64,000 nt of DNA, from positions 342,501 to 406,500 of the forward strand of contig CAUYUJ010000736.1 of NCBI GenBank assembly GCA_963575745.1, given 5' to 3'. The DNA comes from Prorocentrum cordatum. Lineage: Eukaryota > Sar > Dinophyceae > Prorocentrales > Prorocentraceae. The first letter of the stretch is position 1. Each line of letters starts with the position of its first letter. Both the position numbers and the translations under genes were made by a program. Below, piece after piece: positions 12,252-44,705 of the stretch. The notes beneath the pieces were generated by a model that made no database searches, was not told the DNA's origin, and worked only from the letters and a program-made list of their open reading frames with translations.

Positions 12252-12252
<1 letters not shown>

Positions 12253-12616: not shown

Positions 12617-15600
12617 TTAGCGCGGGGCACCAGGCGGAGCGCCGCGGAGCGATGACAGCATAGCTTGGAGGGTGAGTGGCGGCGCAGCACCATCGGGCGA
12701 GGGCGTAAGCAGCTCGGCGAAGGCACGCCCGGCGCGGTGGAGGCGCTGGAGCAGAGGGCTTTGACGGGCTTGAGCAGCGGCAAGGTCGGCGGCGAGAGCA
12801 GCACACCTCTGCTGAAGAGCGGCCATAGACTGGGACAGCTCGGTTTCGCGGTCGGTGAGGGGCGGCTGCTCAGTGCCTGCGGCCGCGGGCCTCGTGGCAG
12901 GGACGAGGTCATCGGTGCGCCTGGCCAGGTGGTGGACCAGCGCAGCGCGGCGCTCCGTGTGCTGGCGGCCGTCGCCCTTCAGAGGCGACTGGAGGGTAAC
13001 ACGCGGTCCCAGGGCTGAAGCCGCTAGGGCCACGCCCCGTGAGGACGGAAGAGCCGCATCCTCGCACCCAGCAACAGTGAAAGCGTGGACGGGGTGCGAC
13101 GGCCTGACTGGCTCGGTGCCCTGCGGGGGGGCTGGAGCCGCCCCCGCGGGCTGGCGCTGGTGGGGGGACGGAGTGGGTGGCACGGTGGGACCAATCATGA
13201 TGCCGTGCGAGGGCTCGGAGGTCGGCCGCGTGGTCGGGTGGCGTCTCGATGGGGCGGCATCGTCGGCAGCGTGGGGTGTCGGCGGGGCGTCGTCTATGCT
13301 GCCACTCAGTCCGAGGGGATCGTACAGGTCGTCGTCGGCGTCTTGACGGTGAGCGACATCATCATGTGGGTGCGATGTCGCCCTCGGTGGCGGAGTCGCG
13401 GTGGGCGTCGAGAGGTTGCCCGACGGGGCAGGGTTGGCGCTGGCTGGGCCGTCGTCCAAGAAGTCCAATCCCCCGCCAAAGCCAAACGGGTCGTCCTCCT
13501 GTTAATCGAGCATCGCCCGTTGGGCCTCGGCCCAGAGCTCATCCGGGTCTTGCGGGATGAATGGTCCAGCCGCGGGTGGTGCCTGGTCCAACAGCAGGGG
13601 GTTCGGTTCCATTTTGCTGAGTTCCGCAGCTGTAAACCCAGCCCTGCGGTGTGGGAGCGGCAGAGTACGGTGTCTGCGCTCGTAGATAGCGACAGCGACC
13701 CCATGAAGCACGGTCGCTTGGCGATGTCGTGTTTTGGCAGCTTCAACAATGTCGTCAGGAAGGTTGTGCGTGCGTGCCGCCGCTGTGGCAAGGGCGTCGG
13801 CCTGACGGTTGAACTCCTCCGCGATGGGCCCGATGAGCCCAAGGTCGATGCCCAGGTCTCCCAGGTGGCTGGCGATTTTTTCGACGCGAAACATGTTGGG
13901 CTTGGCCATAACACATCGGTGGATCTTTTCCCAGAGCTCCGCGTGCGTGCCCTGCGGCGCTGGATGTCCGTCGATGATGCTTTGGAACCCATCGACCACC
14001 GCCTGGTTGTCCACGAAAACGTGCACGGGCCGTTCGGCACATGCCGTAAGGTGGACAATGGCGAGGGTCTCCGCAACCTGGGCGTTCTGCGTTAGGCCGT
14101 GGACGCGTGCACTGTAGTTCATGCGGTGGTCGATGCCGTAGTAGACGCCGTAGCCCGCTCGTGCTAGCAATGGGATGGCTTGGTTGGTGCACGCACCGTC
14201 CGTGGCAGCGTAGACCCATGTCCAACCAGTGTCGTAGTCAAGGTAGGTGGTGTAGGTGTCCTGGGCTGAAGCCGCAGGATCTCCCTCAGGGGGGGGCCGC
14301 GGCATGGGCTGTGGCAGCGGGTCCCTCGCGAGGTCGGCCTGCAGGTCGAGGAGGGCTGGGTCTTCGTCGAAGAGCCCGCAGTGTCTTGTGTGCGGCGGAA
14401 GACGGGCCCACTGGTCGTCACTGATGAGGGTGGTGAGAGGGAGTCTTTCTCGGGCCCAGCACTTGCAGTCGCGGACAGTGTGCTCCTGAGTTTCCTCTTC
14501 CTCGTCGCAGTAGCGGCAGATGGGGCTGGGGTCTGCCGACGTGTTTGATCGGGATCGTCGCTGTTGGGTGTGATCCCCGCCCGACAGGTAGTTCAGGAGG
14601 AGCGCCAGCTGCCAGGCAGTGCATTTGGCTGCTCCTTTAGTTCGGGCGAGCCACGTGCTGGCGAAGAGGTCAAGGCCCTGTCTGACAGAGGCTAGGTAGC
14701 CAAGGTCGTGTCGCCGTGGCTTGATCCTCCGCAGAAATGCCCTGCGTTGTGAGGCCCGCAGCATGTGCAGGGAGGCGTTTTGGGGTAAATTCAGCCAGCT
14801 GATCTGGCAGCCCCAGTCGTCGTACATGATGCCAAATGTGGGCCAGGTCCATCGGAGCTGCTGGAGCGACTGGACGAGTCGTCCGACGGGTCCTCCACCA
14901 AACAGGGTCTGGACGTGGTGTTGGAGGTCTCTGGCGAGCCCGCAGAGTGTAACGTCGCGGTTAACCTGTCGCCGCAGGCACAGGAATGCTTCACGCTGCG
15001 TGATGGCGTCGATCTCCAGGGCGTGTCCTGGGACGCACACGGCCATGAGAGTCCAGAACTCGACCCACTTGTTCCCCTTGGGGCGGATAGCCGCCTTGAG
15101 GGCGTGGTTGTAGGCAGTTTTGGCTGGGCCTGATGGTGCTTGAATGTCGGTGCCCGTGGTGCAGACGCTGGCAGCCAGGGAACGGGCGTGCCGCGCCTTG
15201 ATAAGCATCGGCGATGGGAGCTTGCCAATGCGCGGCAGGCGGATAGTCGCCCTCCGTACACGGGCGTCTGCGGTGGCCGTGAGGTTAAGCGCGGCTGGAG
15301 CCGGCGCTGCCTCTGCGTTGATGTAACTCCCGACGAGCTTGAAGGAATCGACCACACGTAGGGGGCGATCCGCCAGTGTGAGCTGGGTAACGGCGGCGTG
15401 AAGCTCGTCGGTGAGCGCCCACCCTGCCACTTTACCAGGGTGAATGCGTTGACCTGAGAATCGATCAAACTTGGCGGTTTCGTCGAGAGATTTCTGCAGC
15501 TCAGAAGCGGCGTGGGTAGTGGAGTTGCTGTCGTCAACAAAGGTAGTGCTGAGTGATCGAGGAACGTATCGGTGCTGCCTCTTTGTCCACACGCACATGA

Positions 15601-18600
15601 GCAGCTTGATGTCGTCCAGGGACCACGAGCTTCCCTGGAGGTGACCGTTAGTCCTGGCCAGGTCCTTAGAGTACGCTCCGTTCATGCGGATGTAGCGTTT
15701 GTGGTGTCTGTAGAAATTTCGGCGGACAGTAACGATGTCTTGAGGGCACCCCGCGTGCAGCGCAAGGTTAAGACAGATGTCCGTGATGAGGTAGTCGAAG
15801 CACTTCTGTCGGTCAAGGGCAGCTCCAGCTAAGGGGAGGAGTAAAGCCCTGGCGTGTTCGATGCGCAGGGCGAGAGAGGTGCTGACATCCCCAATGGTGG
15901 CTTTGGGAACAGCGCCGAAGCTCGTGGCATGGGTCCATCCTTGCCGCCAGGTCGTGAGGCTACGGTAGGCTGGCGCTTCCCACGCGTACATCCATACGGA
16001 AAGAACCGAGAGAAGTCGTTGGTCCGTCGGGAGTTCCCCTCGGCCTTTTCGGAGGCACGGGTTTGGCACGTGCAGGAGGGGCTCGGGGATGGTGCCAGTG
16101 CGTTGCATAGCACGTAAGACGCTGGCGAAGAGGCGAAGGATGTCGTCGGGTAACTCCTTAGCCTCCTTAGTTGTCCAGCCGTCGAGTCCCCCCGCGCGGC
16201 GCGGTGAACGGGTGCGAATGAAGTGGATGAGTTGGTCGTCGGTGAGGTGGAAAGGGGCTGCTGGTGATGGCGTAGGCAGCTCTTGTCGGTACTCGTCGTA
16301 GAAGTCCGCCCACGTCGGCATAGCTTCGGCGTCATGGCCCGCGCGAGCGCGGTACCTGCCCAAGATGGGCTCCCAGGTGTCGACCATGAGCTTAAGCATG
16401 TCTTTGGTGTTGGCAACAATGGCGTTGGCGGGGAGGGCGTCAGGAACCTGGGCAGGTGGTGAGTCACGAGTGTGGCCTTCGTCGTTGTCCGTGTCGAGCG
16501 AACTACCGTCGCTGGGGCTGAAGCCGCCGGCGTCGGTGTCGGCATCACTATCGTCCGTGCTAGCTTGGTCAGGGTTGAAGGCGGTGGTGTCGCAGTGGAG
16601 CTGTGCATCGTCGGGAGTGGTAGGCGTGCGGAGATACGCCGTGGGCGAGCAGTCGGCAGCCCGTGCGTATATGGCCGCCTTTCGCCCGCTTGGCTCGCGG
16701 ACACCCTCAGCCCAGATCTTGATGCGTTCAGCTTTGGCTCGGTTTGCACGTCGCGCCAGCTCTGAGTCAAGGTTTTGGATCAGACGGTCCAGGTGCTCTC
16801 CGCGTGGTGCTGGCACGTCGGGGGTCCAGGCCTCGGGAAAGGCCAGGAGGGCCGTGGGGCGCAGCTTGTGGCAGAGAAGGCGGGCCGCGGTCCACGTGCA
16901 GTCGATGCGCTGCGCCAGGTACGGCGGGATAGCACGGCAGTCGATATGATGGTGCTGTCCGATGAAGCGAAGCTCGCAAAGTTGCCGATGGAGCTTGCGA
17001 AGGCGGTTCATGTGAATCGTGGAAGCTCCGTAGGTGGGAAAGGCGCGGGGGACGGCGGGTCGCTCCTCGAACGTGGGTGTGAGCCCGTGCATGGTAGGGG
17101 CCTTCTTTTTTGGGTGGTCTGGCGGTGGAGGCGGCAGGTCGCGCAGCCGTGTGAGATGGCACTCATGGCTGGCCTCGTTTGCCAGGGCGAACATGCGTTC
17201 CACATCGTCACGTGTGTCAGCCTGCTCCATGCGGTCATGGTATCGCCCAGCGATGAGGGCCCCTAATGCCTGAAGTTCGTGGTCCTCATGAGCTCCGTCG
17301 TTAGGAGGGTAAGGCGTGGGGGCCAGAAGGCGTGGGGCCGTATGGTCGAGGCGGCTAAGGTCGAGTGTGACCTGCAGGCCAACATGGGACTTCGCTGGCA
17401 AGTCACGCAGATAGCAGAAGTCGGTGACAAGGGATCGCGCAGCTTGGTTGGCGATGATATAATCGATGCGCGAAGTGCGGGGGCACTTGGTGACGCGGTC
17501 CCAGTCAGGGATATTGCCATATGTGTGCATGGTGTGGTCTGGTGTGCCTTCAGCGACGTTAAACCATCCGTGCTGCATCATGTGCAGCAGATGTGGATTG
17601 TCGTCGATGTTCGTGTTGGCGTCCATGCAAATGAAATACGGGGCTGAGCCGACCCTCGCGGCGGCGCAATCAGCAAGCCGAAACAAATCGGTGCTGTCCC
17701 CTCCAGCGACCCCGTAGAGGCTCGCAATGTAGATCCCAGCGGGCCCGTGGTTGTTTCGTCGCCGCCTGCGGCGGTGCTGGGTGCAGAGCGGGAGGAAGGC
17801 CTCGTGCCATCGTTTCTTGGCCTTGAGGGTGGCGATACAGGACGCAGTGTCGTCGACGGTGGAGTCGACGATGGCGTCCTTAGAGAGGATGGCGACCCCC
17901 CCCGAGGCGCCGGTGTTGCCCTCGACCGTGTGGTCCGTGCCACCGTGAGCAGCTTTGCGCTGGGCTCGCGCCAGATCCAGGTCAGGTCCCAGACTGGCCT
18001 GATATCCTCCGTGGTGTGGATTGGCGGCGTTGGTAGCGATGGCTTGCCTGGTAGGCTTGGCATGTCGGGTCTCCTGCAGTGCTATGACTGCGGCGTTGTG
18101 GTCGACACCTAGAGCGGTGATGGTTGGCCAGTTCGCTGGGAGACTCGTGATGTTGAGGCTGACGAGGTGGATGGAGCGACCTGGCCCGTCTCCGTCGGTG
18201 GAGCTGGGGTTAGCACGCCCCGCACGGTGGAGGGCAGCCTGGCCCTCGCCCAGGTAGAAGGCTTGGCCACAGTAGGAGCTCATGGCGTCGCGGCCGATTG
18301 GCTTGGACGGGGCTGAAGCCGCCGTCAGGCCAGAAGTATAGGCAAGGCATGGTCGACGCTGCGCCGGGGGGGGTTCATAAACATCGGCAAAACTGCCTCG
18401 AAAAATCCTCCTCACTCCTGTACCGTGGGGGACGGGGGGAGGAGAGGTGAGACGGCAGCAGAGGGAGAGGGAGGCGACTCCTCGATCCGCCCTGCCGAGA
18501 ACAAGAACAAAAGCAAACCAGCGGCGGCAGCTCGGCGCGGCAGCGGCGCAGCGCGCGCGCACATACTGCGCACGCGACACCGCTGGTCCGTCCTGCGGCG

Positions 18601-21600
18601 GCGCGCCCGCCCCGTCAGTACCGTGATGAGCAGCATCAGCTGGAACAGCTTGTTCATGCGGTGGACCCTGTGGCTGCGGCGGAGGACGCTCAGCCAGCGC
18701 TTCAGCCACCAGCCGAACGTGGCGAGCGGCGCGGTCGGTGGCCTGGCGCTGAGCCTCATCCATGCCCGCTGCCGTGAGGCACGCGTTGCGGACAGGGCTG
18801 ACTCCACGCGGGGCCGCCGCTGCCGCGGGAGCGGCTGAGGTGGCGGGGGCGCTGCCATGGCTCCGAGGAGACAGCGGTGAGCCACCACCGAAGCCCGCCG
18901 CGAGGTCCTTGACGCGGCACTTGTTCTTGAAGGGGTCGAAGGTCGGCGCCTCGTCGATGGGGACGACAACGCGGGTGGGCGGTGGCAACTCCTGGTCCGT
19001 GGACGGCGTCGGCTCGAGGTCGACCTGGCCAGGTTCGATGGCGCTGGCACCGAAACGTGGCACCACCTCGGGGGCTTGGCCATCAGCCTGAGTCTCGCGG
19101 GGCGGCGAGCTCGTGGAGCTCCCAGGGGCCTTGCGCGAGCTGTGGCGGCTGCAGGACCGGCTGCGCGGGACGCGCCCGCCCGTGTGGCGGTCACGTGGCG
19201 AGGTCGCCTGGGCGTTAGCGCGCGCAGAGTCCGCCCTGCTCGGGGAGCGGATCGGCGCTGCGCAGGGTGTTGGGCTGGGCTGGCGGGAGCCGCCTGTGCC
19301 GCCCGCCGCCGAGGCTGCAGCCTGGTCAGGGTCGACGGCGTCAGGCCGGGGGCTGACGTGGTGGGCACTACCCTCGCTGTGCCGCGGGGAGGCGCTGTGG
19401 TGCGCCTGGATGTGCGTGAGGACGAGCGGGACGAGCGGCTGCCGCTCGCGCTCAGGGGGGGCAGGTTTTGCCTGGGCAGGGCGCAGCGCTGCGGCCACGT
19501 TTGGCGGGGGCGTGTGTTGGCGCGGTTGCCAGGCACGCACGTTCGCCTCGCGCCATCCTTCAGGGCGCCCTGTCCTGCCACGGCTTGGTGCAGCCCCCTG
19601 GGCTGAAGCCGCAGGGGTTACCACTGCGGGCTGGTTGCTGGCGGTGCTGTCATGGCGGCCTGGGTAATGGCCCCAGGCACGCGTGGACCCTGGCACGGGC
19701 GAGGTGGCCCGTGGGGGAGCCTGCACGAGTGCACGCGGGTAGCCGATGACCGCTGGGTGCACCCTGGCGTGGGGGGCGTGGCCATAGCTGGAGGCGGCTG
19801 CTCCTGCCGCCGCGGGCCTGGCGCCAATGGGGCCACGGTGATAGGCGGCGCCCCCGCCGTACACCGCGCTGTCGCCTGTCGGGACGCGCGCGGGAGAGCG
19901 GTTGCGTGGCGTGCTCGGCTGACCTGCGTCGCGTTGGTCGCGCTGCTGGGTGCGCTGCTGGTGCTGTTGGTAGCGCTGCTGGTCGGCTCTCGAGAGCGGG
20001 CGGGTGTCGGGGAGGATGGGGGCACGTCGGGCCGCCGCCAGCCCTGATAGACGTGCTCGAAGGCATGGTCTGGGTAGGTCTCCCCGACGGGTGAGTAGCG
20101 CCGCACATGCTCCACGTAGTCAATGTTCTGCGGCTCGGGGAGCACCGTGATGTTCACCGCTCGCTGGTGCGCTGGTCCATAGAGACAGAAGCTACCACGG
20201 TTGCTGCGGTCGTGGTTCAGCTCGGCTTCGGTCGTGGCACGGCTCACCATGGCGTCGCAGAGGCGCATGTCGTAGTCGAGAGCTTGAGGCCCAGGGCCGC
20301 CCTCGGCATCCCAGTACAGTACCACATCTCGCCAGCGGGTGCGGGTAGTGTGGATGCGCTCGGCGATAGACTCGCAGACGGTCCTGACTGTGACACGATC
20401 CCTATGCATGTTGGTGATGGCTAGGGAGTAAGGTCGGCGGACCGTTTTGTTGAAGATGAAGTCCTCCTTGAGGGCCTGGTGAGGGCCGAAGAGCACGTAG
20501 CCTTCCCTCCACAGCGGTTGGTCGGGAGACGGGTCTTCAGGCATCCCCGTTCCTGTGAACCCAGGTGGCCGCCTCGTGCCGTCGGGCAATCCCTGCTTGA
20601 GGACGCGACGCGGCCTCGGTGGTAGATACCATTGACCCTGGTAACCTGCTTGGCCTGGTTGTGGAGGCTCCCCCCCGGGGCCTGAAGGCGCTCGGGGGGG
20701 TTCCTTGAGGTCGTGCTGGGCTGGCGCGTTGCCGTATTGGCGGGCGAGGATGTGCGGAGGCATCCCTGTGGCACGGACGTCGAACAGGCTGTGCGGACGA
20801 GGCGGATGAGGGCATCTGCTGGAGAGGCAGCATGTGTCGGAGTCCCTGTTGTCGGTGCTGTACGCACACGTCCAGCTGTTGCAAGAGTAGTCCGTGGACC
20901 AGTCCATAAGTGCACGTAGTCCGCTGAGGGAGCAGTCTGGGCACGTTGGTTGGCCCGAGGTGCCGAGCTGCGTGTTGCGGCGGGCAGCACAGTACTGACA
21001 GCATTGGAATCGGCACTGTAGGCAAGTCCAGCGTCCTGGTAGGGGCGGGAGCGCTTGCTCGTCGGTGACTGCGTCGTCTGGGTGGGGTCGGGGTCGATCC
21101 CACAAGGGCCAGACGTCGGCGAACCAGGACTGGCCTGTAGTGCGAACCACCTCAGCGGGGAGGCGAGCGTCGTCAGCATGGCGCTCGATCCACTGGGGCC
21201 CCAGGTCCGCTGGGATCATGACCGTGCGCCAAGTGTCGTCCGCCTTGACGTGGACTTGGGTCGGTGCCCAGAGCCTGGTAGTGGTATCGCCATGGTCGTG
21301 GTGGAGGATGACCCAGCCGTCGCGACCCGCAACCGCAGGGTCGATAACGCGGTGGCCCACGACGGTCGTCCCCCACGGTAAGTAGGCGCCGTCGTGGTGC
21401 TCGCCCGGGTCAAGCCAGACCTCGATGCCAGGGGCGTTGACACGGGCCCGCACATCGCGGACGTGGAAGGCGAGGACGTGGTAGGCGGTCGGCTCCTCTT
21501 CCGTCTCGATGTGCTCCCACGTCTCGATGTCGCTGTTGTCCGAGGTGGAGTTTCCGCCGCTCTGCCGTGACGAACGCGAGGCGGATCGCCGTGGGCGGGC

Positions 21601-24600: not shown

Positions 24601-25596
24601 CTGGGCACGAGCGCCCTGGTATTCCAGAAGGAGGCCAAAGTAGCGGGTGGGGTACTCGTGGCTGCCCTGGATACGAGTGAGGTTGCGGTTGGTGCGCTGT
24701 CTGTCGGGGCCCGATCTGTACCAGATATTTTCGCACATGTCGAACGCGGTGCGCTGGCGCAGGGCGTCGTTTTTCTCCTCGGAATCCTCTTGGAAAAAGT
24801 GGTCGTACTGTGGCAGATGGAGCGTCGCCAGGATGTGCGGGACGCAGTCCTCGAGCCATGCCCAGAACACGTCCTGATGGTCCTCACCTGGTGCCCACGC
24901 CGCGGCGCACGGTATGAGCCGTGCTCGGATCATCATCAGGTGCCAGAAAGCGGGGCCCTCATCGGGTTCGCCCCTGGCGCACAGAGGGGTAGCGGGACCC
25001 GTGGGGCTAAAGCGGGGCACGACAGCGGGGCTGAAGCCGCCACTGCGTGCCTGGGCCTTGCCAGCGGCCCCGTCGAGGGTGTGCTGCACGACGGTCGAGG
25101 ACAAGCTGAGGACGGACTGCGATGCCTGTGTCGTGGTTGACGAGGGCGTGCTCGTAGGAGACATGCTGGTACTCGCCGTAGCCGTCGTAGTAGCCGTCGG
25201 AGTCCCAGGGGGGCAGCGCGTGGGGCGGGGCCCCTGGTGCTGCTCAAGCCAGGCGCTCGCGATGGCGCCCAGCGGCCCGGTGCCGCACGGACCCGCGGCG
25301 GCGGTGCTGTTCACGATCGGGTCCAAAATGGCGCAGTGATCGTATTTGTAGATGCTGTCATCGTAAAGGTAGAAGAGCGTCCCACGTTCAGCGTGTCGCA
25401 GGAAAACCTCTCCTCCGTGCTGAGGCGCACCGCCTGAAGACGGGTGTGCTCCAGCTAGCGAGGGGAGGGCCAGGCTGCAGGCAAGGCGCCACATGATGGC
25501 GAGGCCTGGCGGGCGGCGCGAGCGATGAGCCGAAAGCTGCATGTCAGCACACGTCCTCAAATACCCCTGAATGCTCATGTACATTGCTACAATCAC
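12617..25596 (-). pseudogene. Retroelement A ORF2 polyprotein, disrupted by frameshift and stop
   Basis: Three fragments together match the 4,332-codon ORF2 of copy B. Fragment 1 (25596-19618; first ATG a few codons in) covers the N-terminal extension. It shifts frame near 20020, where copy B has GGATGGTGGGCAC and this copy is one base shorter. Fragment 2 (effectively about 20020-13502) holds endonuclease, reverse transcriptase (motif FVDD), the CCHC knuckle and RNase H. It stops where GAA in copy B is TAA here. Fragment 3 (13468-12617, same frame) is the coiled-coil tail. The endonuclease motif M-D-A-N is intact. Relative to copy B, this copy has one rather than two copies of a ~57-codon C-terminal repeat and extra codons near 18660-18740. 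Confidence 0.9.
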
Positions 25597-25755
25597 GCCC
25601 CCTGCAAGACTACGGGTGTCCCTACACCAGATAGCTTGCGCGTGCTGCTGCCAAAACAGACATGAGGTGACAAGAAAGAGATACGACGCGAAGAGGGGAG
25701 AGATGCCTCTGAAGGCGCTTCCTCGGAGGGCTGAGGCGGGCTCTCTGAGGCACCT

Positions 25756-28335: not shown

Positions 28336-28487
28336 TGCTGCGGGCACTCTGGTGTGGAGAGGTGACGCGAATCAGTAGGGTCCTGCTGGGACCCCTCCGG
28401 TCTCGCGAGGCCTGGGAGTCTGACTCCGAGGCGGGGCGCTTCGCGTCGCGGCTGCGGTCTGAGTGCAGGGCACTCTCGAGCCGAGAC

Positions 28488-28490
<3 letters not shown>

Positions 28491-28576
<86 letters not shown>

Positions 28577-28608
28577 CAAGAGAGAGAGAGAGCAAGAGAG
28601 AGAGAGAG
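28491..28608. repeat. (GA)n separating retroelements A and B
   Basis: About 118 bp of GA dinucleotides with a few AAG/CAAG interruptions lie between the 5' end of A and the 3' end of B. It is the only sequence separating the two elements. Confidence 0.95.
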
Positions 28609-28976
28609 CGGACAAGTAGGCGGACCAGGGTCCGTCCGCGAGGCGCACTGCGGTGCGACAACTCGCAAAACACTATTTGCGGCGGTGCAGCCTTTAGATA
28701 CGAGGGCGGGCAACAAAAAACCCCTCCCCCGGCGCAGTGCGACAGACGCTACAGACGGCGGACAGACGATGATGATCTCACCTGTCAGACCGCGTAAAGA
28801 AAGAGGCCCCAACAAGAAAGGCGACGTGCTGACACGTGGCTAGGCGGCTTGGCAGACCGCCAGTTGGGCGCTTGGCCGCTAAGCGGCGCGCAGTGACGGG
28901 GCACCCCCCGCCCCCACGCCCTGACACCGTGGACGCGGAGCCACGCGTACACACGGGCAGGCAGAAAGGGGGGAGA
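28609..28976 (-). other. 3' UTR of retroelement B
   Basis: Non-coding and nearly identical to the 3' UTR of copy A. It includes the nested terminal hairpin GCGAG/CTCGC at 28638-28666. Confidence 0.7.
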
Positions 28977-37900: not shown

Positions 37901-40900
37901 CCCGCACATCACGGACGTGGTAGGCGAGGACGTGGTAGGCAGTCGGCTCCTCTTCCGTCTCAATGTGCTCCCACGTCTCGATGCCACTGTTGTCTGAGGT
38001 GGAGTTTCCGCCACTCTGTCGTGACGAACGAGAGGCGGATCGCCGTGGGCGGGCGTGGCCTCGGGCGAGGGCGGCGGCCGCGCTGATGAGGGAAGGCGTA
38101 CGGCGTTCGTCGGCTCCTGATGACGTCGATGAGCGGTCTGGACTGTGCGCCAGGGCTGTGCCTGACTTGTGAGTGCGCGGTGGGCCAGACGCGGCCCCAG
38201 GGCTGGAGCCGCTGGGGCGCGACTCGCGTGCGTCAGGATGCCCCCGCACGGGGACGGCTTGCAAGCCAGTGTACACCAGGTCGATGAGTGGTTTCGGGTC
38301 CAGCTGGAGCTTGCGAAGCGAGACGCGTGGGCGGGGCTGGTTAGGGTCGTCCCTGGTGGCTGCTTCAGTGTCGTAGTGCTGTTTGGCCCATACTCGCGCT
38401 GCCTCTGGCGAGTATAGTGCCTGCGGCGGTGGCCACGCTGCCGCGATGACTGGTCTGCGCCTGGTGCTAGCTTCCTGGTCGTGAGCTTCAGCCGCCTCAC
38501 GGAGATCTGGATGATCGTAGCCAGCGATGTGAAGGGCGTGCGCACAGTCGCCCATGCCATAGGCGTGTGGTAGGGCACGGCACCTGGAAGCAGCTTCTGT
38601 GGGGGCGCACCAGTCCATGCGGATGAGGAGGCTCAGGACCCGAGGGTAAATGAGACGCGCTCCGTGGGCCTCCCCTTTCACGACGTTGTGCCTGTTTTCC
38701 CCGCGCGGTGGTTGGGTGGCCTCGCACATCCAGAGTGCGATGGGTCCCCACGCGAGGGTGTCGTCTTCGAGACTGTAGGGCGGGTGGGGCGGCATTGCGT
38801 ACCACGCGGCCAGCGAAGGGTGCACGCTCACGTACGTGCGGCCAACGTTGGTGCCAGTTCGACCCTTCGCTTCACGGCGGGGACCTGGCAAGAGGTGCCC
38901 TCCGCTGGCAGCAAGACGGGCCGCAAGGTCGCCGCGGGTCCCATGCCAGAAGACAGTGGGCGCGTCGGTGGTGGGTTGGCGGAGGTCCCACGTGAGGTAG
39001 GGGAAGATTGTCTCGCCTGAGTTCCCGCCCGAGTCTTCCAGCACCCAAGTGAGGCGGTTTGGGGGCCTCTGCATGATGTCAGTCCACGGCCCCAGCGCTT
39101 GGAGTGTTAGATCATGGGTAAATCGAGGATGGTCGTGGAGTCGCAGAGCGTCTTTGATGTCCTCTGTAGACACACCACTGTTACCAAGCGCAAAGCCGTT
39201 TTGGTACAGGGCGTTGAGGATGCTCTTCGGCGGCACGGGGACCGCTGGGTCGCGCTGGATAGTGTTGCGTAAGTTGCGTGTCGGTGGCTTGAGGGCTGTG
39301 TAAGGCATACCAGGGCCTGAAGGCGCCTGGGGCCTGGCGGGTGATGCATAGCGCGCTCGCCGTCGTGGTGGTTGGGTGTCCGCGTCGGGAGAGGAACCAC
39401 GAGCATCAGCATGTCGGAAGATGGACCACGGGCTATCGTGGGTGCGCTCACGTGTTTCCCTTGCCTCGGTGTCGCTGCCGTGTGCTGTGGCATCCTCGTT
39501 AGTCGGTAGGTTACCGTATGCCGCGCCGCTTTTGGAGCCGTCTCGCGGGGACGGGCTGGTCGATCTTGGTGTGACAGACGAGGCTCGCGATACGGCGGCA
39601 GTGACTTCGACGATGGCGGCGGTGGTGGCGGTGGTGACATCGGCGACTGCGGCGGCAACTGCTGCGGCGTAGTGTTCCTGCAGCAGCGGATGTCGGAGTG
39701 AGTGCACGTGCTGGTCGTCGTGTTCGTCGGCAAGCGTGCACGGCATTGTGTATGTGGCCTCATCGCGCGGCCTCCTGCTCGGTTGGCAACAGCGGAGGCA
39801 CCACTGGGCTGTGGATGAGTCCAGGGCCCGCGCACAGATGCGGGCTCCTACGTGTCCGACGGCTCCTTGAGCAAGAAGTTTGGCGCCGACGAGTAGAAGA
39901 CCGCACACGACTCCACCCGTGGCAATAGCCCCGAGTTTGCCGCTGGCCCATTTCAGGACACCCCCGAGGCCGACCCCGACTGCGCTGGCTCCGCCCGAGA
40001 CGCTATCTCTGAGTTTGACGCTGGTCCATTTGAGAGTGGCCCACAATGCGGACGTGACGTTGTATGTCGTTGTGCGTCGGGATGTGGTGGGCACAGATGG
40101 GCCTGGTGCCGCCGCTTCACGTCGTCGTCGTTGTCGGTAGCTGGGGTCTCGGCTCGGTGTCGGCAAGTACCCATCGATCTGGTCCTTGTACGGCATTGCT
40201 ATCACGATGGCGTACGTGGCCACAAAGAGGCAGATGAGGCAGCCACAGTGTCGTGATGCCGCTGCGCTGTGCTGGGGCTCGTGGGAACCGCTGGCATCTG
40301 GGTACTCATCATCGATGGGGTCGTTGTCGATGTCGGCCTGCCAGTGGTCGATGACACTGGGGTTGGAGTCAGTCACGTTAACACGGTATACAGAGGTGCG
40401 GGGCGTAGTGCTGCCACCTGCGGTCTGGGGATGTCCAGGTCCAGCCAGTGCTGCAGCGGGGCTGAAGCCGCCACTGCGCGGGCTGGCATGAGCTGGCGAT
40501 GCAGTGGTATGGCTTGTCGCGTCGGCGGCAGTGGCGCCTTCAGCGTCGTTGAGCTGTGCGCAGGGGTCGGCCTGGGCCGAGTTGTTGGGCGGACTGCTGT
40601 GCGACGAGGTGTGCCCTAGGTGGGGTTCACTGTCGCGGTCACGCTGGGCCGTGTCGCCTGGTGGTGTCGTGCCGTCGCGATCCTGGGTTTCCATGTCGTC
40701 CTGGCTATCGTCCACGTGGACCGAGCCCAGGGATATGTTGCTGATATCGTCCGACGCGTGGAACGAGTCCAGGGGTGTGTCGCTGATGTCGCTGGCCGCG
40801 ATGTGCTGGAGCAGCCATGATACGGGGTCGTCTGCGGCCTGATCACCCGTGGCGTGCTGGGCGAGGCCAGCTGGCGGTGGTGGGTTAAGCGGTTCCATCG

Positions 40901-41975
40901 GTGCCGCGGCGAGCTCCGCCTCGACAAGCGGCTGCATGTCTGTCGGGTGGTGCAGGATCGCATCAGCGAGGTACGCCAGGGCGTCTTGGTCGGGTGGGGG
41001 AAGGCCTCTTGGTAGTAAGGCGTGGGCCCGTGAGAGGTATGGCGGCAATGGTGCCGTGAAAGCCTCAGGGCCGACGAGCTGGGCACGAGCGCCCTGGTAT
41101 TCCAGAAGGAGGCCAAAGTAGCGAGTGGGGTACTCGCGGCTGCCCTGGATACGAGTGAGGTTGCGGTTGGTGCGCTGTCTGTCGGGGCCTGCTCTGTGCC
41201 AGATGTCCTCGCACATGTCGAACGCGGTGCGCTGGCGCAGGGCGTCGGTTGTGTCCTCAGGGTCCTCCTGGAAGAGGTGATCGTACTGTGGCAGATGAAG
41301 CGTCGCCAGGATGTACGGGACGCAGTCCTCGAGCCATGCCCAGAACACGTCCTGGTGGTCCTCACCTGGTGCCCACGCCGCAGCGCACGGTATGAGCCGG
41401 GCGCGGATCATCATCAGGTGCCAGAAAGCGGGGTCCTCCTCGGGTTCGCCCCTAGCGCACAGGGGGGTGGTGAGACCCGTGGGGCTATAGCGGGGCACGA
41501 CAGCGGGGCTGAAGCCGCCACTGCGTGCCTGGCCTATATCAACGTCCCCGTCAAGGATCTGCTGCACCACGGTCGAGGCCACGCTGGGGGTGGATTTCGA
41601 TGCATGTGTCGTAGTTGACAAGGGCGTGCATGCGCTCACGATGGCGCCCAGCGGTCCGTTGCCGCACGGACCCGCGGCTGCGGTGCTGTTCACGATCGGG
41701 TCCAAAATGGTGCAGTGATCGTACTTGTAGATGCTGTCATCGTAAAGGTAGAAAAGAGTCCCACGTTCAGCATGTCGCAGGAAAACCTCACCTCCATGCT
41801 GGGGCGCACCGCCTGAAGACGGGTGTGCTCCAGCGAGCGAGGGGAGGGCCAGGCTGCAGGCAAGGCGCCACATGATGGCGAGGCCTGGCGGGCGGCGCGA
41901 GCGATGAGCCAAAAGCTGCATGTCAGCACGCATCCTCAGATACCCCTGCATGCTCATGTACATTGCAACAATCAC
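28977..41975 (-). CDS. Retroelement B ORF2 giant polyprotein (EN-RT-RNase H)
   Basis: 4,332 codons; the frame opens with GTG and the first ATG is 41963 (residue 5). Approximate residues: signal-like MWRLACSLALPSLAGA 35-50; membrane segment CLICLFVATYAIVIAM ~575-595; second hydrophobic stretch ~680-705; PARP-like FWHGTR...YVSVHPSLAAWYA ~1005-1060; Cys-rich blocks ~1495-1575; Gln/Arg-rich ~1840-1860. Then APE-type endonuclease ~2420-2700 (LNITSL, ALQETR, SRIDYI); reverse transcriptase ~3060-3430 (motif A LDRQKCFD, motif B LQGSS, motif C FVDD ~3305); CCHC knuckle CRYC...H...C ~3640-3663; RNase H ~3740-3892 (ATDGA, AET, VDN, ADALA); coiled coil ~4250-4305. In the endonuclease, the motif expected to be (G/M)DxN reads MGAN (Gly 2610, codon 34146-34148). 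RT-family assignment is secure; the extension is not recognised as a whole. Confidence 0.9.
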   Translation of the reverse strand: MIVAMYMSMQGYLRMRADMQLLAHRSRRPPGLAIMWRLACSLALPSLAGAHPSSGGAPQHGGEVFLRHAERGTLFYLYDDSIYKYDHCTILDPIVNSTAAAGPCGNGPLGAIVSACTPLSTTTHASKSTPSVASTVVQQILDGDVDIGQARSGGFSPAVVPRYSPTGLTTPLCARGEPEEDPAFWHLMMIRARLIPCAAAWAPGEDHQDVFWAWLEDCVPYILATLHLPQYDHLFQEDPEDTTDALRQRTAFDMCEDIWHRAGPDRQRTNRNLTRIQGSREYPTRYFGLLLEYQGARAQLVGPEAFTAPLPPYLSRAHALLPRGLPPPDQDALAYLADAILHHPTDMQPLVEAELAAAPMEPLNPPPPAGLAQHATGDQAADDPVSWLLQHIAASDISDTPLDSFHASDDISNISLGSVHVDDSQDDMETQDRDGTTPPGDTAQRDRDSEPHLGHTSSHSSPPNNSAQADPCAQLNDAEGATAADATSHTTASPAHASPRSGGFSPAAALAGPGHPQTAGGSTTPRTSVYRVNVTDSNPSVIDHWQADIDNDPIDDEYPDASGSHEPQHSAAASRHCGCLICLFVATYAIVIAMPYKDQIDGYLPTPSRDPSYRQRRRREAAAPGPSVPTTSRRTTTYNVTSALWATLKWTSVKLRDSVSGGASAVGVGLGGVLKWASGKLGAIATGGVVCGLLLVGAKLLAQGAVGHVGARICARALDSSTAQWCLRCCQPSRRPRDEATYTMPCTLADEHDDQHVHSLRHPLLQEHYAAAVAAAVADVTTATTAAIVEVTAAVSRASSVTPRSTSPSPRDGSKSGAAYGNLPTNEDATAHGSDTEARETRERTHDSPWSIFRHADARGSSPDADTQPPRRRARYASPARPQAPSGPGMPYTALKPPTRNLRNTIQRDPAVPVPPKSILNALYQNGFALGNSGVSTEDIKDALRLHDHPRFTHDLTLQALGPWTDIMQRPPNRLTWVLEDSGGNSGETIFPYLTWDLRQPTTDAPTVFWHGTRGDLAARLAASGGHLLPGPRREAKGRTGTNVGRTYVSVHPSLAAWYAMPPHPPYSLEDDTLAWGPIALWMCEATQPPRGENRHNVVKGEAHGARLIYPRVLSLLIRMDWCAPTEAASRCRALPHAYGMGDCAHALHIAGYDHPDLREAAEAHDQEASTRRRPVIAAAWPPPQALYSPEAARVWAKQHYDTEAATRDDPNQPRPRVSLRKLQLDPKPLIDLVYTGLQAVPVRGHPDARESRPSGSSPGAASGPPRTHKSGTALAHSPDRSSTSSGADERRTPSLISAAAALARGHARPRRSASRSSRQSGGNSTSDNSGIETWEHIETEEEPTAYHVLAYHVRDVRARVNAPGIEVWLDPGDHHDGAYLPWGTTVMGHRVINPAVAGRDGWVILHHDHGDTTTKLWAPTQVHVKADDTWRTVMVPADMGPQWIECHAEDARLPAEVVRTTGQSWFADVWPLWDRPRPHPDDPGTNEHALPPLPGRWSCLQCRFQCCQYCAARRNTQLGTSGQPTCPDCARSGLRTLMDWSTDYSCNSWTCAYSTDNRDSDTCCLSSRCPHPPSPHSLLDVRATGMPPHILARQFGNAPAHHDLKEPPRAPSGPGGEPPQPGQAGYQGQWYFPPRPRRVPRQGLPDGTRRPPGFTGTGMPEEPFPDQPLWREGYVLFGPHQALKEEFTFNKTVRRPYSLAITNMYRDRVTVRTVCESIAERIHTTRTRWRDVVLYWDAEGGPGPQALDYDMRLCDAMVSRATTEAELNHDRSNRGSFCLYGPAHQRAVNITAISEPQNIDYMEHVRRYSPVGETYPDHAFEHVYRGWQRPDVPTILPDTRPLSRADQQRYQQHQQRIQQRDQRDAGQPSTPRYRSPARVPTGGSTAYGGVAAYYRGPIGARPAAAGAAASSYGHAPHARVHPAVIGYPRALVQALPRATSPVPGSTRAWGHYSGRHDGTSSNQPAVITPAASAQGAATNRGRTGRPEGWRDANVRAWQPRQHTPPPNVAAALRPAQAKPAPPERERQPLVPLVLTYIQAHHSASPRHSEGSAHHVSPRPDAVDPDQATATAEGGTSASRQPSPSPCAAPIRSPSRADSERANAQATSPRDRHTGGRVPRSRSCSRHSSRKAPGSSTSSPPRETQADGRAPEVVPRFGASVIEPGQVDLEPTPSTDHEPPLPTRVIVPIDEAPTFDPFKNKYRVKDLAAGFGGGSPLSPQSRGGAPATSAAAAAAAAPRGISPVRNAGLTAAGMDEAQRQATDRAARAVPPDAAHQDTDGAGAPPQDGPAVSRAQYMRVRCAAAAPSRRRRFAFAFVFGRTDRGVASLSLCCRLTSPPLVPYGTGVRRIFRDSFTDVYEPPLAQCRPCLAYTSGLTAASAPVKLIHRNAMSSYCGQAFYLGEGQADLHRAGRANPSSTDGDGPGRSIHLVSLNITSLSANWPTITALGVDHNAAVIALQETRHAKPTRQAIATSAANPHHGGYHASLGPDLDLARAQRRAAHGGTDHTVVGNTGASGGVAILSKDAIVDSTVDDTAPCIVALKAKKRWHEAFLPLCTQHRRRRRRNNHGPAGIYIASLYGIAGGDSTDLFRLADCAAARVGSAPYFICMGANTNIDDNPHLLHVMQRGWFNVAEGTPDHNMHTYGNIPDWDRVTKCPRTSRIDYIIANQAARSLVTDFCYLRDLPAKSHVGLQVTLDLSRLDHTARRLLAPTPYPPNDGAHEGHELQALGTLIAGRYQDRMEQADTRDDVERMFALANEASHEYHLTRLRDLPPPPPDHPKKKPPTMHGLTPMFEERPVVPRAFPTYGASTIHMNRLRKLHRQLCELRFIGQHHHLDCRAIPPYLAQRIDCTWTAARLLCHKLRPTVLLDFPEAWTPDEPAPHGEHLDVLIQHLDLELARRANRAKAERIKIWAEGVREPSGRKAAIYARAADSSPTAYLRTPTTPDDTQLHCDTNAFKPDKASTDDSDADTEAGGFSPSDGSSPDTDNDEDHTCEPPPAQVPDILPANAIVANTKDMLKLMVDTWEPILGRYRARAGHDAEAMPTWADFYDEYRQELPTPSPATPFHLTDDQLIHFIRTRSPRRAGGLDGWTTKEAKELPDDILRLFASVLRAMQRTGTIPEPLLHVPNPCLRKGRGELPTDQRLLSVLSVWMYAWEAPAYRSLTDWRKGWTHATSFGAVPKATIGDVSTSLALRIEHARALLLPLAGAALDRQKCFDYLITDICLNLALHAGCPQDIVTVRRNFYSRHKRYIRMNGAYSKELARTNGHLQGSSWSLDDIKLLMCVWTKRQHRYVPRSLSTTFVDDSNSTTHTAPELQKSLDETAKFDRFSGQRIHPGKVAGWALTDELHAAVTQLTLAERPLRVVDSFKLVGSYINAEAAPAPAALNLTATADARVRRATSRLPRIGKLPSPMLIKARHARSLAASVCTTGTDIQAPSGPVKTAYNHALKAAIRPKGNKWVEFWTLMAVCVPGHALEIDAITQREVFLCLRRQVNRDATLCGLVRDLQHHVQTLFGGGPVGRLVQTLQQLRWTWPTFGIMYDDWGCQISWLNLPQNAFLHMLRASQRRAFLRRIKPRRHDLGYLASVRQGLDLFASTWLARTKGAAKCNAWQLALLLNYLSGGDHTQQRRSRSNTSADPSPICRYCDEEEETQEHTVRDCKCWARERLPLTTLISDEQWARLPPHTRHCGLFDEDPALLDLQADLARDPLPQPIPRPPPEGDPAASAQDSYTTYLDHDTGWTWVYAATDGACTNQAIPLLARAGYGVYYGIDHRMNYSARVHGITQNAQLAETLAIVHLTACAERPVHVFVDNQAVVDGFQSIIDGHSPPQGTHVELWEKIHRCVMAKPNMFRVEKIASHLGDMGIDLGLIGPIAEEFNRQADALATTAARTHNLPDDIVEAAKTRHRQATVLHGVAVAIYERRHRTLPLPHRRAGFTAAELNKMEPNPLLSDQAPPAAGPDIPQNPDELWAEAQRAIFDEQEDDPFGFGGGLDFLGDGPASANLAPSGTRTSPSTPPLRAASHPHDNAAHLQDADEQEDDLFSFGGGSDALDDGPVSENPAPSGNLSMPTATPSPRATSPPYDDIGHRQDADDDLGDPRGLSGIDDAPPTPHAADHAALPRRHPSTRPTSEPLHGIMIGPTAQTTPPPHRRQPAGAASAPPQGTEPDRPSRPVHASIVAEREDAALPTSRGVALAAPALGSRVPLQSPFKGDGRQRTGCRTTLVHHLDRRTEDLASVSRPSAAGTEQPPLTDRETELSQAMAALQQRCVALAADLAAAQARQGPLLQRLHSAGRAFAELLTPSPDGAVPSLTIQAMLSSFRGAPPGAPR
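33870..34710 (-). other. APE-type endonuclease domain of ORF2 B (catalytic Asp lost)
   Basis: Recognisable motifs in order are LNITSL (Asn), ALQETRH (Glu), GGVAIL, IYIASLYG, FICMGANTNID, and SRIDYI. In LINE endonucleases of this fold the Asp of the D-x-N motif is essential. Here it is Gly, while copy A has Asp at the same site. The usual terminal SDH motif reads KSH in both copies, so that is a family trait and not damage. Confidence 0.8.
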
Positions 41976-42134
41976 GCCCCCTGCAAGATGACGGGTGTCC
42001 CTACACCAGATAGCTTGCGCGTGCTGCTGCCAAAACTGACATGATATGACAAGAAAGAGATACGACGCGAAGAGAGAAGAGATGCCTCTGAAGGCGCTTC
42101 CTCGGAGGGCTGAGGCAGGCTCTCTGAGGCACCT

Positions 42135-44705
42135 TCAATAGGGTTCCTGGGTGACCCGACCCTTGTCTTTGCCTTTGTCAGCCCCTGGGGGCCCCGTCCC
42201 TGGGGTGACCTGGCCTGGCTGGTCGATCCACCCGCAGACAACCACGGGATCGGCAACTGATGCAGCTTCCTCCTTCTTAGTTTCGAGAGTGGCCACCTGT
42301 GGCAGGTGGATGGTGCCCCCCGTGAGGTGCCCGAGGAGGGCCTGGATGTCGCCACGCAGTGCAGCGGCTTCGGCGGTTGCCGTCTGTTGCTGGGTGACGA
42401 CGGTGGCAAGCCCCCGTTCCAAACCTGAGACGTGCTCCGTGAGTGTGGCCTGGGAGGAGAGAACGCCCGCAAGCTGAACCTGCATGTTATCCACCGTGTT
42501 GGCAAGCAGCTCGTGCTGTTGTTCCATGTGTTGGATGCGGGTCGTGGCGGCATCTGGCAGTTTAGGGGCCGATGCGAAGCGTTCGCCGAAGGTGTTGAGT
42601 TCGTGGGAAGCCACGCTGTATTCATCACCTGATGAGAGGATCTCGACGTCGTCAGCGTCGCCTGGTACTTCGGCGGCTGTGGCAGCGTCCCCTTCGGTGT
42701 GGCCCCCATCTTCAGCCGCCACCGTGCCAAGCTGCGGGTCATGACCACCTGATCCTTGGACGGCCGTCTGCTCGGCAGCTCCGTCCGTGCCGTGCGGGGG
42801 TGCAGAGGAGCTGCGGCCTGGGGCGCCGTGTGATCTTGCGTGCGGCGTGGCGTCGCGTTTCCCACTGGAGGATCGGTGGCGCTTGGCTAAAGGCTCCTCC
42901 TTGGGGATCAGGAGCGGTGCGACGCCCTTGCCTTTGGGCGTGGCAGTCATGAGGTCGTGGAGGTAAGGGCTCTGGGCCGCTTTGGTGAGGAGTGTGCCAG
43001 TGGCGGGGCTGAAGCCGCCACCACGGGCTGGCGGCGTCACAGGCTCTGTGATAGTGGTAGGCGTGACGATGGTAACGTTGTCCCTCTTCGGCACCACCTC
43101 AGCCAGCGGGGCCTCGGTGATGCTCCACGGGATGGGGCACCCTGCGACCTGTACCGTATATGTGAGTGGGGGACGATGGGCGCGCACTAAGGCAAACTGA
43201 GCCGAAGTGGCTGGGTCCCAGGCGGTGTGGTAGACCTCACAGTCCCATTTAACGGACGGGCCCGTGAGAGTCTTGGCGAGCTGGGTCAGCGTGGCGTGGC
43301 GTGCCGCAATGCCAGTGATGCGGTAGCGCGTCTTGGCGAGGGTGGCTTCGCAGCCGCGGATGCTGACGGCAGCAGCCTTGGCGGCGTCTGACCCTCGTGA
43401 AACACGGATCCCCAATAAGCCTGACTTGCCGTGCCTGACGACTCCCAGGGCCTTGAAATCCACCGACTTCTGGAACGCATCTGCCATCGTGATGGGCTGG
43501 TCCTCAGGGAACCACACGGTCTGGTACTTGTCTGCAGTGGGCTCGTCTGCACCTACGTTGCTGAGGTCGTAGGTGGCGCCGAGTTGCCCTGAACCCGCCA
43601 AGACCTTGTCGACCGCTTGAAGACTGACGCCGAAGGTGGCAGCCAGGGACCTCTTTCCGACGCCCGATCCAAACCTGCCTAGGCTTTTGCAGGGTTCGAG
43701 GATGGTGACGGCTTTAAAGTTGCCGTGGAAGAGGGCCTTGAAGGTGTCCTGGAGCTGACTATCGAGCTCCTGGCGGCGAGCGTCTTTCTTGGACTCCCTG
43801 TGCTTTTGGTTTTGGCGCGCCTTGTCCTGTGGAGCGGAGTCCCCTCGGAAAGGACCCTTGGCGCGTGGACCACCGTTCACGGGGGCACCTCCCGAGAACT
43901 GGTCCTCGAAGGCCTGATGCATGGAGGGGACTGCGGCGATGGCCTCGGTTTCATGTATGGTCGCCCGAATCCAGCATACGTGGTCGGCAGGGTCGATGGT
44001 GGCGACGGCTACTTTTTCCGTGCAGGCGACTTCCTTGGTGCCCAGCTGGTACACGGTCACGGGGACGTGCGTGTGGACCACTTTGGGCGCCTTGGGGTGA
44101 CGCTTCAGCACGGGGACGGCGAGCTCGGTACCGACGTAGTTATCGTTTTTTGGGCCCATGACAGCAATCGCAAGCTGACCCGTGGTACGCTTACCCTGCT
44201 CGAGGTGGTGTTGCAGCAGCCGTTCACCGCTCTCGTAGTCGTGGAGGCTGATACTGGGCTTGTACGTCTTGCCGTCGTCAAGTGATGTGGGTTCGGCGAG
44301 GACTGGGACCTTCCAAAAGGCCGGGTCCAAGGCAATGAATTGGGTGTCCGCAGCCTGAAGACGTGCGGACCCAGCTGGTGGGTGTGATGTGTCACCGCCA
44401 ATGCGCTTAGGCTTGCTGCGCTGGTGGTGATCCAGCGTGTAGCTGATCTGGTTGGCGGCGCACATGCGGATCAAGGCACTGCCGAGCTTCTTCGTGTTGG
44501 TCTTGTGCATGTCGTACGTGGCCTGAAGCTCATCCGCGTTCAGCTCGGCAAGCCCGTTGTATGCGGCCGTGGGGCGGTCAGACCCCGCTTGCTTGAAAGC
44601 TGCGATGCAGTCCTGCTTGCGTTGGAGGAGAGACCCTTCAGCAGCAGGACGTGAGCTCGGAGGCTGCTTGGAAGAGCGACGGCGCTCCGGCTTACTGGGG
44701 GCCAT
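42135..44705 (-). CDS. Retroelement B ORF1 protein
   Basis: 856 residues from ATG 44705 (MAPSKPERRRSS). The N terminus is basic. The central ~600 residues are well conserved with copy A but match no family I can name. A Ser/Thr/Pro-rich, acidic stretch runs around residues 590-710, and a predicted coiled coil at about residues 720-800 (ATTRIQHMEQQHELLANTVD onward) probably drives oligomerisation. The protein has no CCHC knuckle or RRM that I can see. A small GGFSP-encoding hairpin lies at 43007-43016. It probably binds element RNA, by analogy with other LINE ORF1 proteins. Confidence 0.8.
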   Translation of the reverse strand: MAPSKPERRRSSKQPPSSRPAAEGSLLQRKQDCIAAFKQAGSDRPTAAYNGLAELNADELQATYDMHKTNTKKLGSALIRMCAANQISYTLDHHQRSKPKRIGGDTSHPPAGSARLQAADTQFIALDPAFWKVPVLAEPTSLDDGKTYKPSISLHDYESGERLLQHHLEQGKRTTGQLAIAVMGPKNDNYVGTELAVPVLKRHPKAPKVVHTHVPVTVYQLGTKEVACTEKVAVATIDPADHVCWIRATIHETEAIAAVPSMHQAFEDQFSGGAPVNGGPRAKGPFRGDSAPQDKARQNQKHRESKKDARRQELDSQLQDTFKALFHGNFKAVTILEPCKSLGRFGSGVGKRSLAATFGVSLQAVDKVLAGSGQLGATYDLSNVGADEPTADKYQTVWFPEDQPITMADAFQKSVDFKALGVVRHGKSGLLGIRVSRGSDAAKAAAVSIRGCEATLAKTRYRITGIAARHATLTQLAKTLTGPSVKWDCEVYHTAWDPATSAQFALVRAHRPPLTYTVQVAGCPIPWSITEAPLAEVVPKRDNVTIVTPTTITEPVTPPARGGGFSPATGTLLTKAAQSPYLHDLMTATPKGKGVAPLLIPKEEPLAKRHRSSSGKRDATPHARSHGAPGRSSSAPPHGTDGAAEQTAVQGSGGHDPQLGTVAAEDGGHTEGDAATAAEVPGDADDVEILSSGDEYSVASHELNTFGERFASAPKLPDAATTRIQHMEQQHELLANTVDNMQVQLAGVLSSQATLTEHVSGLERGLATVVTQQQTATAEAAALRGDIQALLGHLTGGTIHLPQVATLETKKEEAASVADPVVVCGWIDQPGQVTPGTGPPGADKGKDKGRVTQEPY

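Follow-up and report, generated by a model that had tools for sequence, protein, structure and literature searches.

Bulged Hairpins Dispersed along the Sense RNA of a Dinoflagellate LINE as Candidate Protein-Recognition Sites

Two LINE Copies in a Prorocentrum cordatum Locus

The stretch of DNA analysed here, referred to as the window, comprises 64,000 nucleotides of the genome of the dinoflagellate Prorocentrum cordatum (assembly GCA_963575745.1, contig CAUYUJ010000736.1, positions 342,501 to 406,500), and it carries two copies, A and B, of a long interspersed nuclear element (LINE). Each copy bears 15 small hairpins of one kind, all lying on the sense strand of the element, and we consider them to be candidate sites of protein recognition in its RNA. 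The guanine-plus-cytosine content of the window is 61%, and that of the species is given as 59.7% (PMC11453091). This composition is in keeping with a dinoflagellate, as are a GH7 cellulase-like ORF and a distant Symbiodinium relative of the LINE proteins. Genome-wide searches described below cover the 4.13 Gb assembly of 21,875 contigs. The features of the two copies, including their open reading frames (ORFs), are as follows:

12251..28488, minus strand, LINE copy A, about 16.2 kb, flanked by (AG)n tracts, defined by A-versus-B alignment and boundary sequence
28609..44858, minus strand, LINE copy B, about 16.2 kb, flanked by (AG)n tracts, head-to-tail with A
25756..28347, minus strand, ORF0 of A, 863 amino acids
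19618..25596, minus strand, ORF1 of A, 1992 amino acids
13502..19864, minus strand, ORF2 of A, with an apurinic/apyrimidinic endonuclease (APE) and weak reverse transcriptase (RT) and RNase H matches
42135..44705, minus strand, ORF0 of B
28977..41975, minus strand, ORF1 plus ORF2 of B, a single frame of 4332 amino acids
12251..12612, minus strand, LINE 3' end common to a second family, N

The copies are 92% identical over 16,225 aligned bases, and among the three frames ORF0 shows the fewest changes between them. ORF1 and ORF2 form a single frame in B that is split in two in A; length differences between the copies are of 1 nt near 20020 and 168 nt near 13436. Exo_endo_phos, the APE endonuclease, scores above the cut-off in ORF2, RVT_1 reaches only E 0.22, which is below it, and the RT region of ORF2 shows homology to further RT proteins; one of these, P0008, carries a precomputed RT domain. 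Self-comparison showed that the element ends share AG tracts only and no long terminal repeats (LTRs), and the 3' end is 98-100% identical at 40 scored places out of 1809 candidates. With an endonuclease and an RT in one reading frame, no LTRs and many copies, the element is an APE-type non-LTR retrotransposon. A distant relative of its proteins occurs in Symbiodinium (24% identity, E 1.2e-9), and no DNA relatives were found in viral and prokaryote collections. For ORF1 of A the protein-family search yielded no family above cut-off; its residues 1172-1201 weakly match a YbeY endoribonuclease motif, below cut-off (E 0.14 in Pfam, 0.036 in NCBIfam), perhaps by chance.

Both copies are set in (AG)n tracts at 12201-12250, 28489-28608 and 44859-45779, and such tracts also adjoin copies at the fetched loci L001, L003/L021, L019 and L020. 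Since several copies are flanked in this way, the LINE has probably inserted into AG/CT microsatellites.

Form and Layout of the Hairpins

Read in the sense direction, each hairpin consists of a variable arm, mostly of 5-9 bp, a bulged C, the triplet G-N-C, the loop U-Y-Y-A (Y, pyrimidine), the triplet G-N'-C and the matching arm. Alignment of the 30 sites reveals invariant C10, G11, C13, U14, A17, G18 and C20, with pyrimidines at positions 15 and 16. The middle pair of the core is G-C at 11 of the 15 sites in each element, C-G at two and U·G at two, and thus at four sites the structure has been kept and the sequence has not.

About twelve shared-core hairpins had been predicted for both elements from the sequence. 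They are real, and the number was too low. All 22 plus-strand cores listed in that original prediction are present, the first in A starting at 13013 rather than 13014, and the G described as following the core is found at 22 of 22 sites. Four further sites per element, which have pairing arms when core mismatches are allowed (27974/44353, 25432/41811, 22861/39315 and 20680/37134, in A and B, respectively), had been missed because their core reads GCCTYYAGGC or GTCTTCAGGC. An additional site proposed in the opposite orientation (22030/38485) turned out to be noise: 22030 has a GA loop and no pairing arms, and B lacks an exact core at that position. The hairpins are listed below as 29-nt spans, and individual sites are otherwise named by core position:

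27965..27993, minus strand, hairpin A1, U-G core pair
26619..26647, minus strand, hairpin A2
25423..25451, minus strand, hairpin A3, U-G core pair
25020..25048, minus strand, hairpin A4
23997..24025, minus strand, hairpin A5
22852..22880, minus strand, hairpin A6, C-G core pair
21738..21766, minus strand, hairpin A7
20671..20699, minus strand, hairpin A8, C-G core pair
19592..19620, minus strand, hairpin A9
18302..18330, minus strand, hairpin A10
16507..16535, minus strand, hairpin A11
15284..15312, minus strand, hairpin A12
14255..14283, minus strand, hairpin A13
13121..13149, minus strand, hairpin A14
13004..13032, minus strand, hairpin A15
44344..44372, minus strand, hairpin B1, U-G core pair
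42998..43026, minus strand, hairpin B2
41802..41830, minus strand, hairpin B3, U-G core pair
41498..41526, minus strand, hairpin B4
40451..40479, minus strand, hairpin B5
39306..39334, minus strand, hairpin B6, C-G core pair
38192..38220, minus strand, hairpin B7
37125..37153, minus strand, hairpin B8, C-G core pair
36045..36073, minus strand, hairpin B9
34827..34855, minus strand, hairpin B10, arms partly broken
33032..33060, minus strand, hairpin B11
31809..31837, minus strand, hairpin B12
30780..30808, minus strand, hairpin B13
29481..29509, minus strand, hairpin B14
29364..29392, minus strand, hairpin B15

The arms pair at every site, as had been predicted, although not perfectly, with 3 to 7 of the 8 nearest positions forming Watson-Crick pairs. 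They mostly differ between sites, but not all are unique: 24006 and 25029 are alike at 13 of 14 arm bases, and 21747 and 13013 at 12 of 14. In a permutation test this sharing gave P values of 0.10 for the first pair and 0.03 for both pairs together, and as the one sign of hairpin copying within the LINE it is suggestive.

Along the RNA of A the hairpins are spaced by 1346, 1196, 403, 1023, 1145, 1114, 1067, 1079, 1290, 1795, 1223, 1029, 1134 and 117 nt. Spacings of 1000-1350 nt account for 11 of 14 in A and 11 of 14 in B, which was matched in none of 100,000 uniform placements. That interval was picked after the data had been seen, and in a fairer test, admitting any 1.35-fold interval, none of 20,000 placements was as regular; the coefficient of variation gave a P value of 0.00008.

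A covariance-model search, proposed with the original prediction, was run over both strands of the window with filters off, and 72 matches up to E 10 were listed. The 30 sites, which also constitute the training set of the model, score 30.3-40.8 bits and the next best match in the window 16.2.

A sixteenth hairpin occurs in A at 23969-23979 (CGTCTTCAGAC), 37 nt from 24006 and with a U-A middle pair, and it is also found at loci L016 and L019 and not in B. It fits the consensus and was excluded from the 15 because B is without it; possibly it is a hairpin in the course of being gained or lost.

Chance, Coding and Folding

The hairpins lie within protein-coding sequence, all 15 sites of B being inside reading frames, and they could in principle reflect a coincidence of repeated peptide motifs. 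Five of the 15 sites in B are read in the frame that yields GGFSP or GSSP, and two relatives of the LINE protein, P0003 and P0004 (78 and 77% identical in the alignment, respectively), retain GGFSP at site 16516 although the residues around it have changed. However, the bulged C of the B sites falls at codon position 1 once, at position 2 nine times and at position 3 five times, and the other frames encode the unrelated AASAQ, RLQ, APAPA and PSSGG. Moreover, when hairpins were sought within the ORFs by consensus plus arms, 14 were found in A (including 23969) and 15 in B, compared with maxima of 2 and 3, respectively, in 1000 synonymous-codon shuffles of each. No array arises in the shuffles, and the peptide-repeat explanation, already set aside in the original prediction, is rejected.

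Other controls gave similar results. The same search returned no hairpins antisense to the ORFs or in the window outside the elements, in agreement with the original prediction, in which none was noted there. The originally described core plus bulge occurs 9 times in the ORFs of A and 11 times in those of B, with a maximum of 2 in 300 synonymous-codon shuffles, and the bare motif GSCTRRAGSCG is present 26 times in the window, compared with 1.2 expected from dinucleotide shuffling of the window.

Covariation supports the drawn structure. Among the 30 sites, of which 24 are distinct, 83.0% of cells are paired against 56.8% after shuffling, and the covariation score is 0.606 compared with 0.152 when shuffled and 0.088-0.207 when the partner is slid. 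For a larger set of 136 matches, obtained with the covariance model over 20 fetched loci up to E 1 and including four from the N family, the score is 0.614 compared with 0.156 when shuffled. This covariation is mainly between different sites.

Seven of eight single hairpins that were folded adopted the structure as drawn, and in folding energy the 15 A sites are all among the lowest 5.1% when set against 4000 stretches drawn at random from the elements. In 211-nt contexts the mean core pairing is 0.86 (A) and 0.83 (B) for the sense strand versus 0.66 (A) and 0.50 (B) for the antisense strand. Rfam yielded no matches in the window at gathering score, and the identification of the hairpin with a known RNA family was rejected on this basis. 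No convincing common extra motif was detected near the sites.

These results bear on whether the hairpin might act in single-stranded DNA, be it cDNA or a displaced strand, where it could, for instance, cause pausing or serve for priming while the second strand is made. The DNA is able to form the same hairpin and the sites span the whole element. Nevertheless, the U-G core pair that two sites have in A as well as in B and the better folding of the sense RNA favour the sense strand, although both are still compatible with sense-strand DNA, and we consider action in DNA improbable.

Conservation among LINE Copies

Between A and B none of the 135 core and bulge positions has changed, the loop pyrimidines being excluded, compared with 133 of 1280 positions in the flanks of 16 sites. 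The inner five-pair arms show 3 changes in 150 positions and the loop pyrimidines 4 in 30, all from pyrimidine to pyrimidine. When the dropped site 23969 is added, the core changes increase and are still far below those of the flanks. At third codon positions 12-16% of bases differ outside the hairpins and 2 of 91 inside them.

Eleven further LINE copies, several of them partial, were taken from the same assembly and aligned. Here changes affect 4 of 1044 core positions (0.4%), none of 130 bulges, 2 of 262 loop pyrimidines, 5 of 1305 inner-arm and 16 of 522 outer-arm positions, compared with 596 of 10,341 in the flanks (5.8%). Some outer arm pairs show coordinated changes from copy to copy, as at 44353 and 41507. 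Of the 131 site-copies covered, 126 are intact; four of the others carry a single change and one has a gap. Judged from these alignments, the hairpin sites are evidently under strong purifying selection.

At greater distance there may be turnover of sites from one family to another, as differences among protein relatives suggest at two positions. At 16516, P0007 has GGVSP in place of GGFSP, and the more distant P0005 and P0006 lack GGFSP. At 14264, P0009 is 4 residues shorter and P0010 and P0011 are 5 residues shorter, such that small indels may add or remove individual hairpins; these differences are at the protein level only. P0007 is labelled as coming from a Myxococcales metagenome-assembled genome and is 95% identical to ORF2 of the LINE, a degree of identity which probably reflects eukaryotic contamination of that assembly.

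One explanation offered in the original prediction was a mini-hairpin that copies itself and inverts its flank on insertion, in the manner of palindromic coding insertions. Such an origin would account for the variable self-complementary arms, for the two pairs of sites with similar arms and for the shorter relatives at 14264, which provide the only hint of an empty site. It does not fit with the constant orientation of 30 of 30 sites, the filled state of nearly all site-copies or the greater conservation of hairpins than of flanks; the core pair covaries rather than descending as a fixed sequence, and the arm sharing is statistically weak.

The distribution of cores in the genome is also relevant to this explanation. 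In the assembly the exact core GGCTGAAGCCG was counted 15,054 times and the reversed control 7,418 times. From 100 places listed, some of the clusters of hits and 19 isolated hits, the latter not picked at random, were fetched. The fetched clusters proved to be LINE copies together with one N copy, and 18 of the 19 isolated cores have a paired run of at most three bases beside the core, which argues against a free mobile hairpin with dispersal to unrelated places. One isolated hairpin does have arms (L035, considered below). No hairpins were present in about 16 kb flanking the LINE copies. On balance an inserting mini-hairpin is hardly credible.

A Second Carrier of the Hairpins

An element that we term N lies between two LINE copies and between AG tracts on contig C2 (G000:C2:~406.7-413.5 kb; L021 from 209 and L003 1-5560). 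Over its final ~360 nt it matches the LINE 3' end, with 89% identity over 415 aligned nt including the AG tract, and the rest of N gave no match to a LINE protein better than E 2.5, such that N is presumably non-autonomous. The body carries long low-complexity frames rich in alanine, proline and threonine, and internal repeats. N is multicopy, being 97-100% identical over a 901-nt part at 40 places scored out of 228 candidates. Five hairpins are present in the copy on C2:

L021:1200-1228, sense strand, N hairpin, 29.4 bits
L003:1344, sense strand, N hairpin, 35.4 bits
L003:1458, sense strand, N hairpin, 31.5 bits
L003:3536, sense strand, N hairpin, 36.4 bits
L003:4567, sense strand, N hairpin, 20.1 bits, bulged A

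Three other partial copies, each of 3.4 kb, also carry five hairpins, all sense, in which the bulge is A or C and the arms include GGGTGC/GCACCC and GAGTGC/GCACTC. Among N copies none of 126 aligned hairpin positions has changed versus 294 of 6489 elsewhere. The presence of the LINE 3' end together with the hairpins in an element whose body is otherwise unlike the LINE suggests a signal that is present in cis and read in trans by the LINE machinery.

Possible Functions of the Array

The other explanation originally put forward, namely structural elements in the RNA of the element, is well supported by covariation, sense-strand placement, selection across copies and reuse by the second family. 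Moreover, the conserved loop, bulge and closing pairs, the free outer stem and the repetition in one orientation and in all frames give each hairpin the appearance of a protein-recognition site. We propose, with a probability of about 0.6, that the hairpins are dispersed cis-acting sites in the sense RNA at which a protein is recognised, for assembly of a ribonucleoprotein (RNP) or for selection and packaging of the RNA.

A protein, most likely encoded by the LINE, would read the bulged C, or sometimes A, together with the G-N-C/G-N'-C stem and the U-Y-Y-A loop, and the sequence of the outer stem would be of little importance to recognition. Approximately one site per kb over the 16 kb RNA would mark that RNA as the element's own, and the hairpins would nucleate assembly of an RNP or particle, with target-primed reverse transcription to follow. 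N would travel with the LINE as a non-autonomous family imitating its two tags: the 3' end would allow priming, and the hairpins would give access to the RNP. ORF0 could be the RNA-binding partner of the hairpins.

Several observations weigh against recognition by a LINE protein, or against parts of the structural case on which it is built. No hairpin-binding protein was identified, and a coat protein was recognised neither in protein-family searches nor in the fold prediction for ORF0, which failed, its mean predicted local distance difference test (pLDDT) score of 33.2 being too poor for a structure search. Within the covariation analysis of the 30 sites, pairs changed on both sides are not outstanding (10 versus 8.6 shuffled; 95 of 500 shuffles as high), nor are pair types (25 versus 22.2; 79 of 500 as high); for the 136 matches the corresponding shuffles were as high in 257 and 8 of 500. 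None of the three inner-arm changes between A and B restores a pair within its own site as drawn, and in-step changes within a site are mainly limited to the outer arm pairs of other copies. A-C mismatches occur in the inner arms, three in A and two in B, compared with four and five G-U pairs. Site 25432 alone does not fold as drawn, and 2 of the 30 sites fold poorly in their local context (0.02 for 24006 in A and 0.01 for 44353 in B).

There are also difficulties regarding distribution. The isolated core at L035:1364 (G000:C48 near 617.86 kb) has a 7-pair arm, including two G·U pairs, and scores 24.1 bits, and no LINE, N or AG tract was found in its 3 kb surroundings; it may be due to chance, or it may belong to a host gene or to some third family. 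In N the hairpin spacing is irregular, and two N hairpins resemble LINE site 29490, arms included, and may have been inherited from the LINE by recombination; the remaining N hairpins have arms of their own. Furthermore, conservation by itself cannot separate packaging from export, stability or translation.

This last point leads to an alternative in which the hairpins are RNA recognition sites serving another step, be it nuclear export, stability of the RNA, evasion of silencing or the translation of an mRNA of such great length, and possibly acting via a host protein. All the structural and selection evidence applies equally to it, and even spacing over a long RNA would suit export or protection too. 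Sharing of the hairpins by a family with the LINE 3' end is more readily explained by selection through the LINE machinery than by a general function in the host, and the lack of arms at 18 of the 19 isolated cores fetched also tells against the latter; we regard service in another step as rather unlikely.

A more specific version of protein recognition for RNP assembly or packaging is offered tentatively. The LINE might package its own RNA, perhaps in a particle, via evenly spaced hairpins resembling coat-protein operators, with N as a satellite wearing the same hairpins and with a code like that of MS2 having arisen independently. The LINE RNA seems to bear an explicit, repeated address tag which is also borne by a second element. 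Protein recognition of the hairpins, if correct, would carry the packaging-signal idea over from viruses to retroelements of the non-LTR kind, and it could supply a new orthogonal RNA-protein pair.

Other Features of the Window

A 152-bp tandem repeat, with 7.5 copies that are 98% alike, extends over 11057-12197 directly beside the 3' end of A. A GH7 cellobiohydrolase-like gene occupies one open frame at 51453-53261 (Pfam E 3.9e-151). No match to all 21 letters of the spliced leader was found within 4 mismatches.

Comparison with Known Systems

Bulged stem-loops and coding palindromes are familiar from other systems. The iron-responsive element has a bulged C on the 5' side of a short upper stem, with a variable lower stem beneath it; the bulged C is common to the hairpins described here, and the upper stem length and the loop differ. 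Membership of that family finds no support from Rfam, which gave no match to it in the window. Rickettsia palindromic elements are self-complementary sequences inside reading frames. In the mitochondria of Nematomorpha, long perfect repeats lie in coding genes and encode conserved parts of the proteins (PMC6649704); these repeats are likewise self-complementary within reading frames and, unlike the present hairpins, are described there without a shared bulge-and-loop core.

Hairpins of LINEs have been reported chiefly at the 3' end (PMC5135761). A bulged stem-loop has been proposed or shown to be recognised by a LINE protein, and such a role has also been proposed for the non-autonomous Alu. 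The conserved stem-loop of those elements occurs chiefly in the 3' untranslated region, in contrast to the 15 of one kind which run through the coding frames here. A full-text literature search, with most subscription journals outside its reach, revealed no hairpin array in a LINE.

Closest in organisation are the packaging signals of single-stranded RNA viruses, in which many stem-loops with a shared motif and variable stems are distributed along one RNA, as was found for the LINE. In satellite tobacco necrosis virus (STNV) there are as many as about 30 such stem-loops, AXXA being the preferred loop, on a 1239-nt genome (PMC3593212). They resemble the array in recurring with a preferred loop along one RNA and differ from it, on the published description, in being much denser, in having no bulge in the stated motif and in having a known capsid protein.

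For MS2 the packaging motif is an (x)xYA loop with an A in the 5' bulge (PMC6281560). The likeness extends to many stem-loops on one RNA with a common loop and bulge motif, which in the present case is UYYA with a 5' bulged C or, in some N hairpins, A. The differences are that the upper stem has three pairs here, that the motif is nearly invariant, that the spacing in the LINE is about 1.1 kb, and that, unlike MS2 and STNV, the carriers are genomic retroelements in which no coat protein has been recognised. The likeness to MS2, though striking, is best regarded as a resemblance in working and not as membership.

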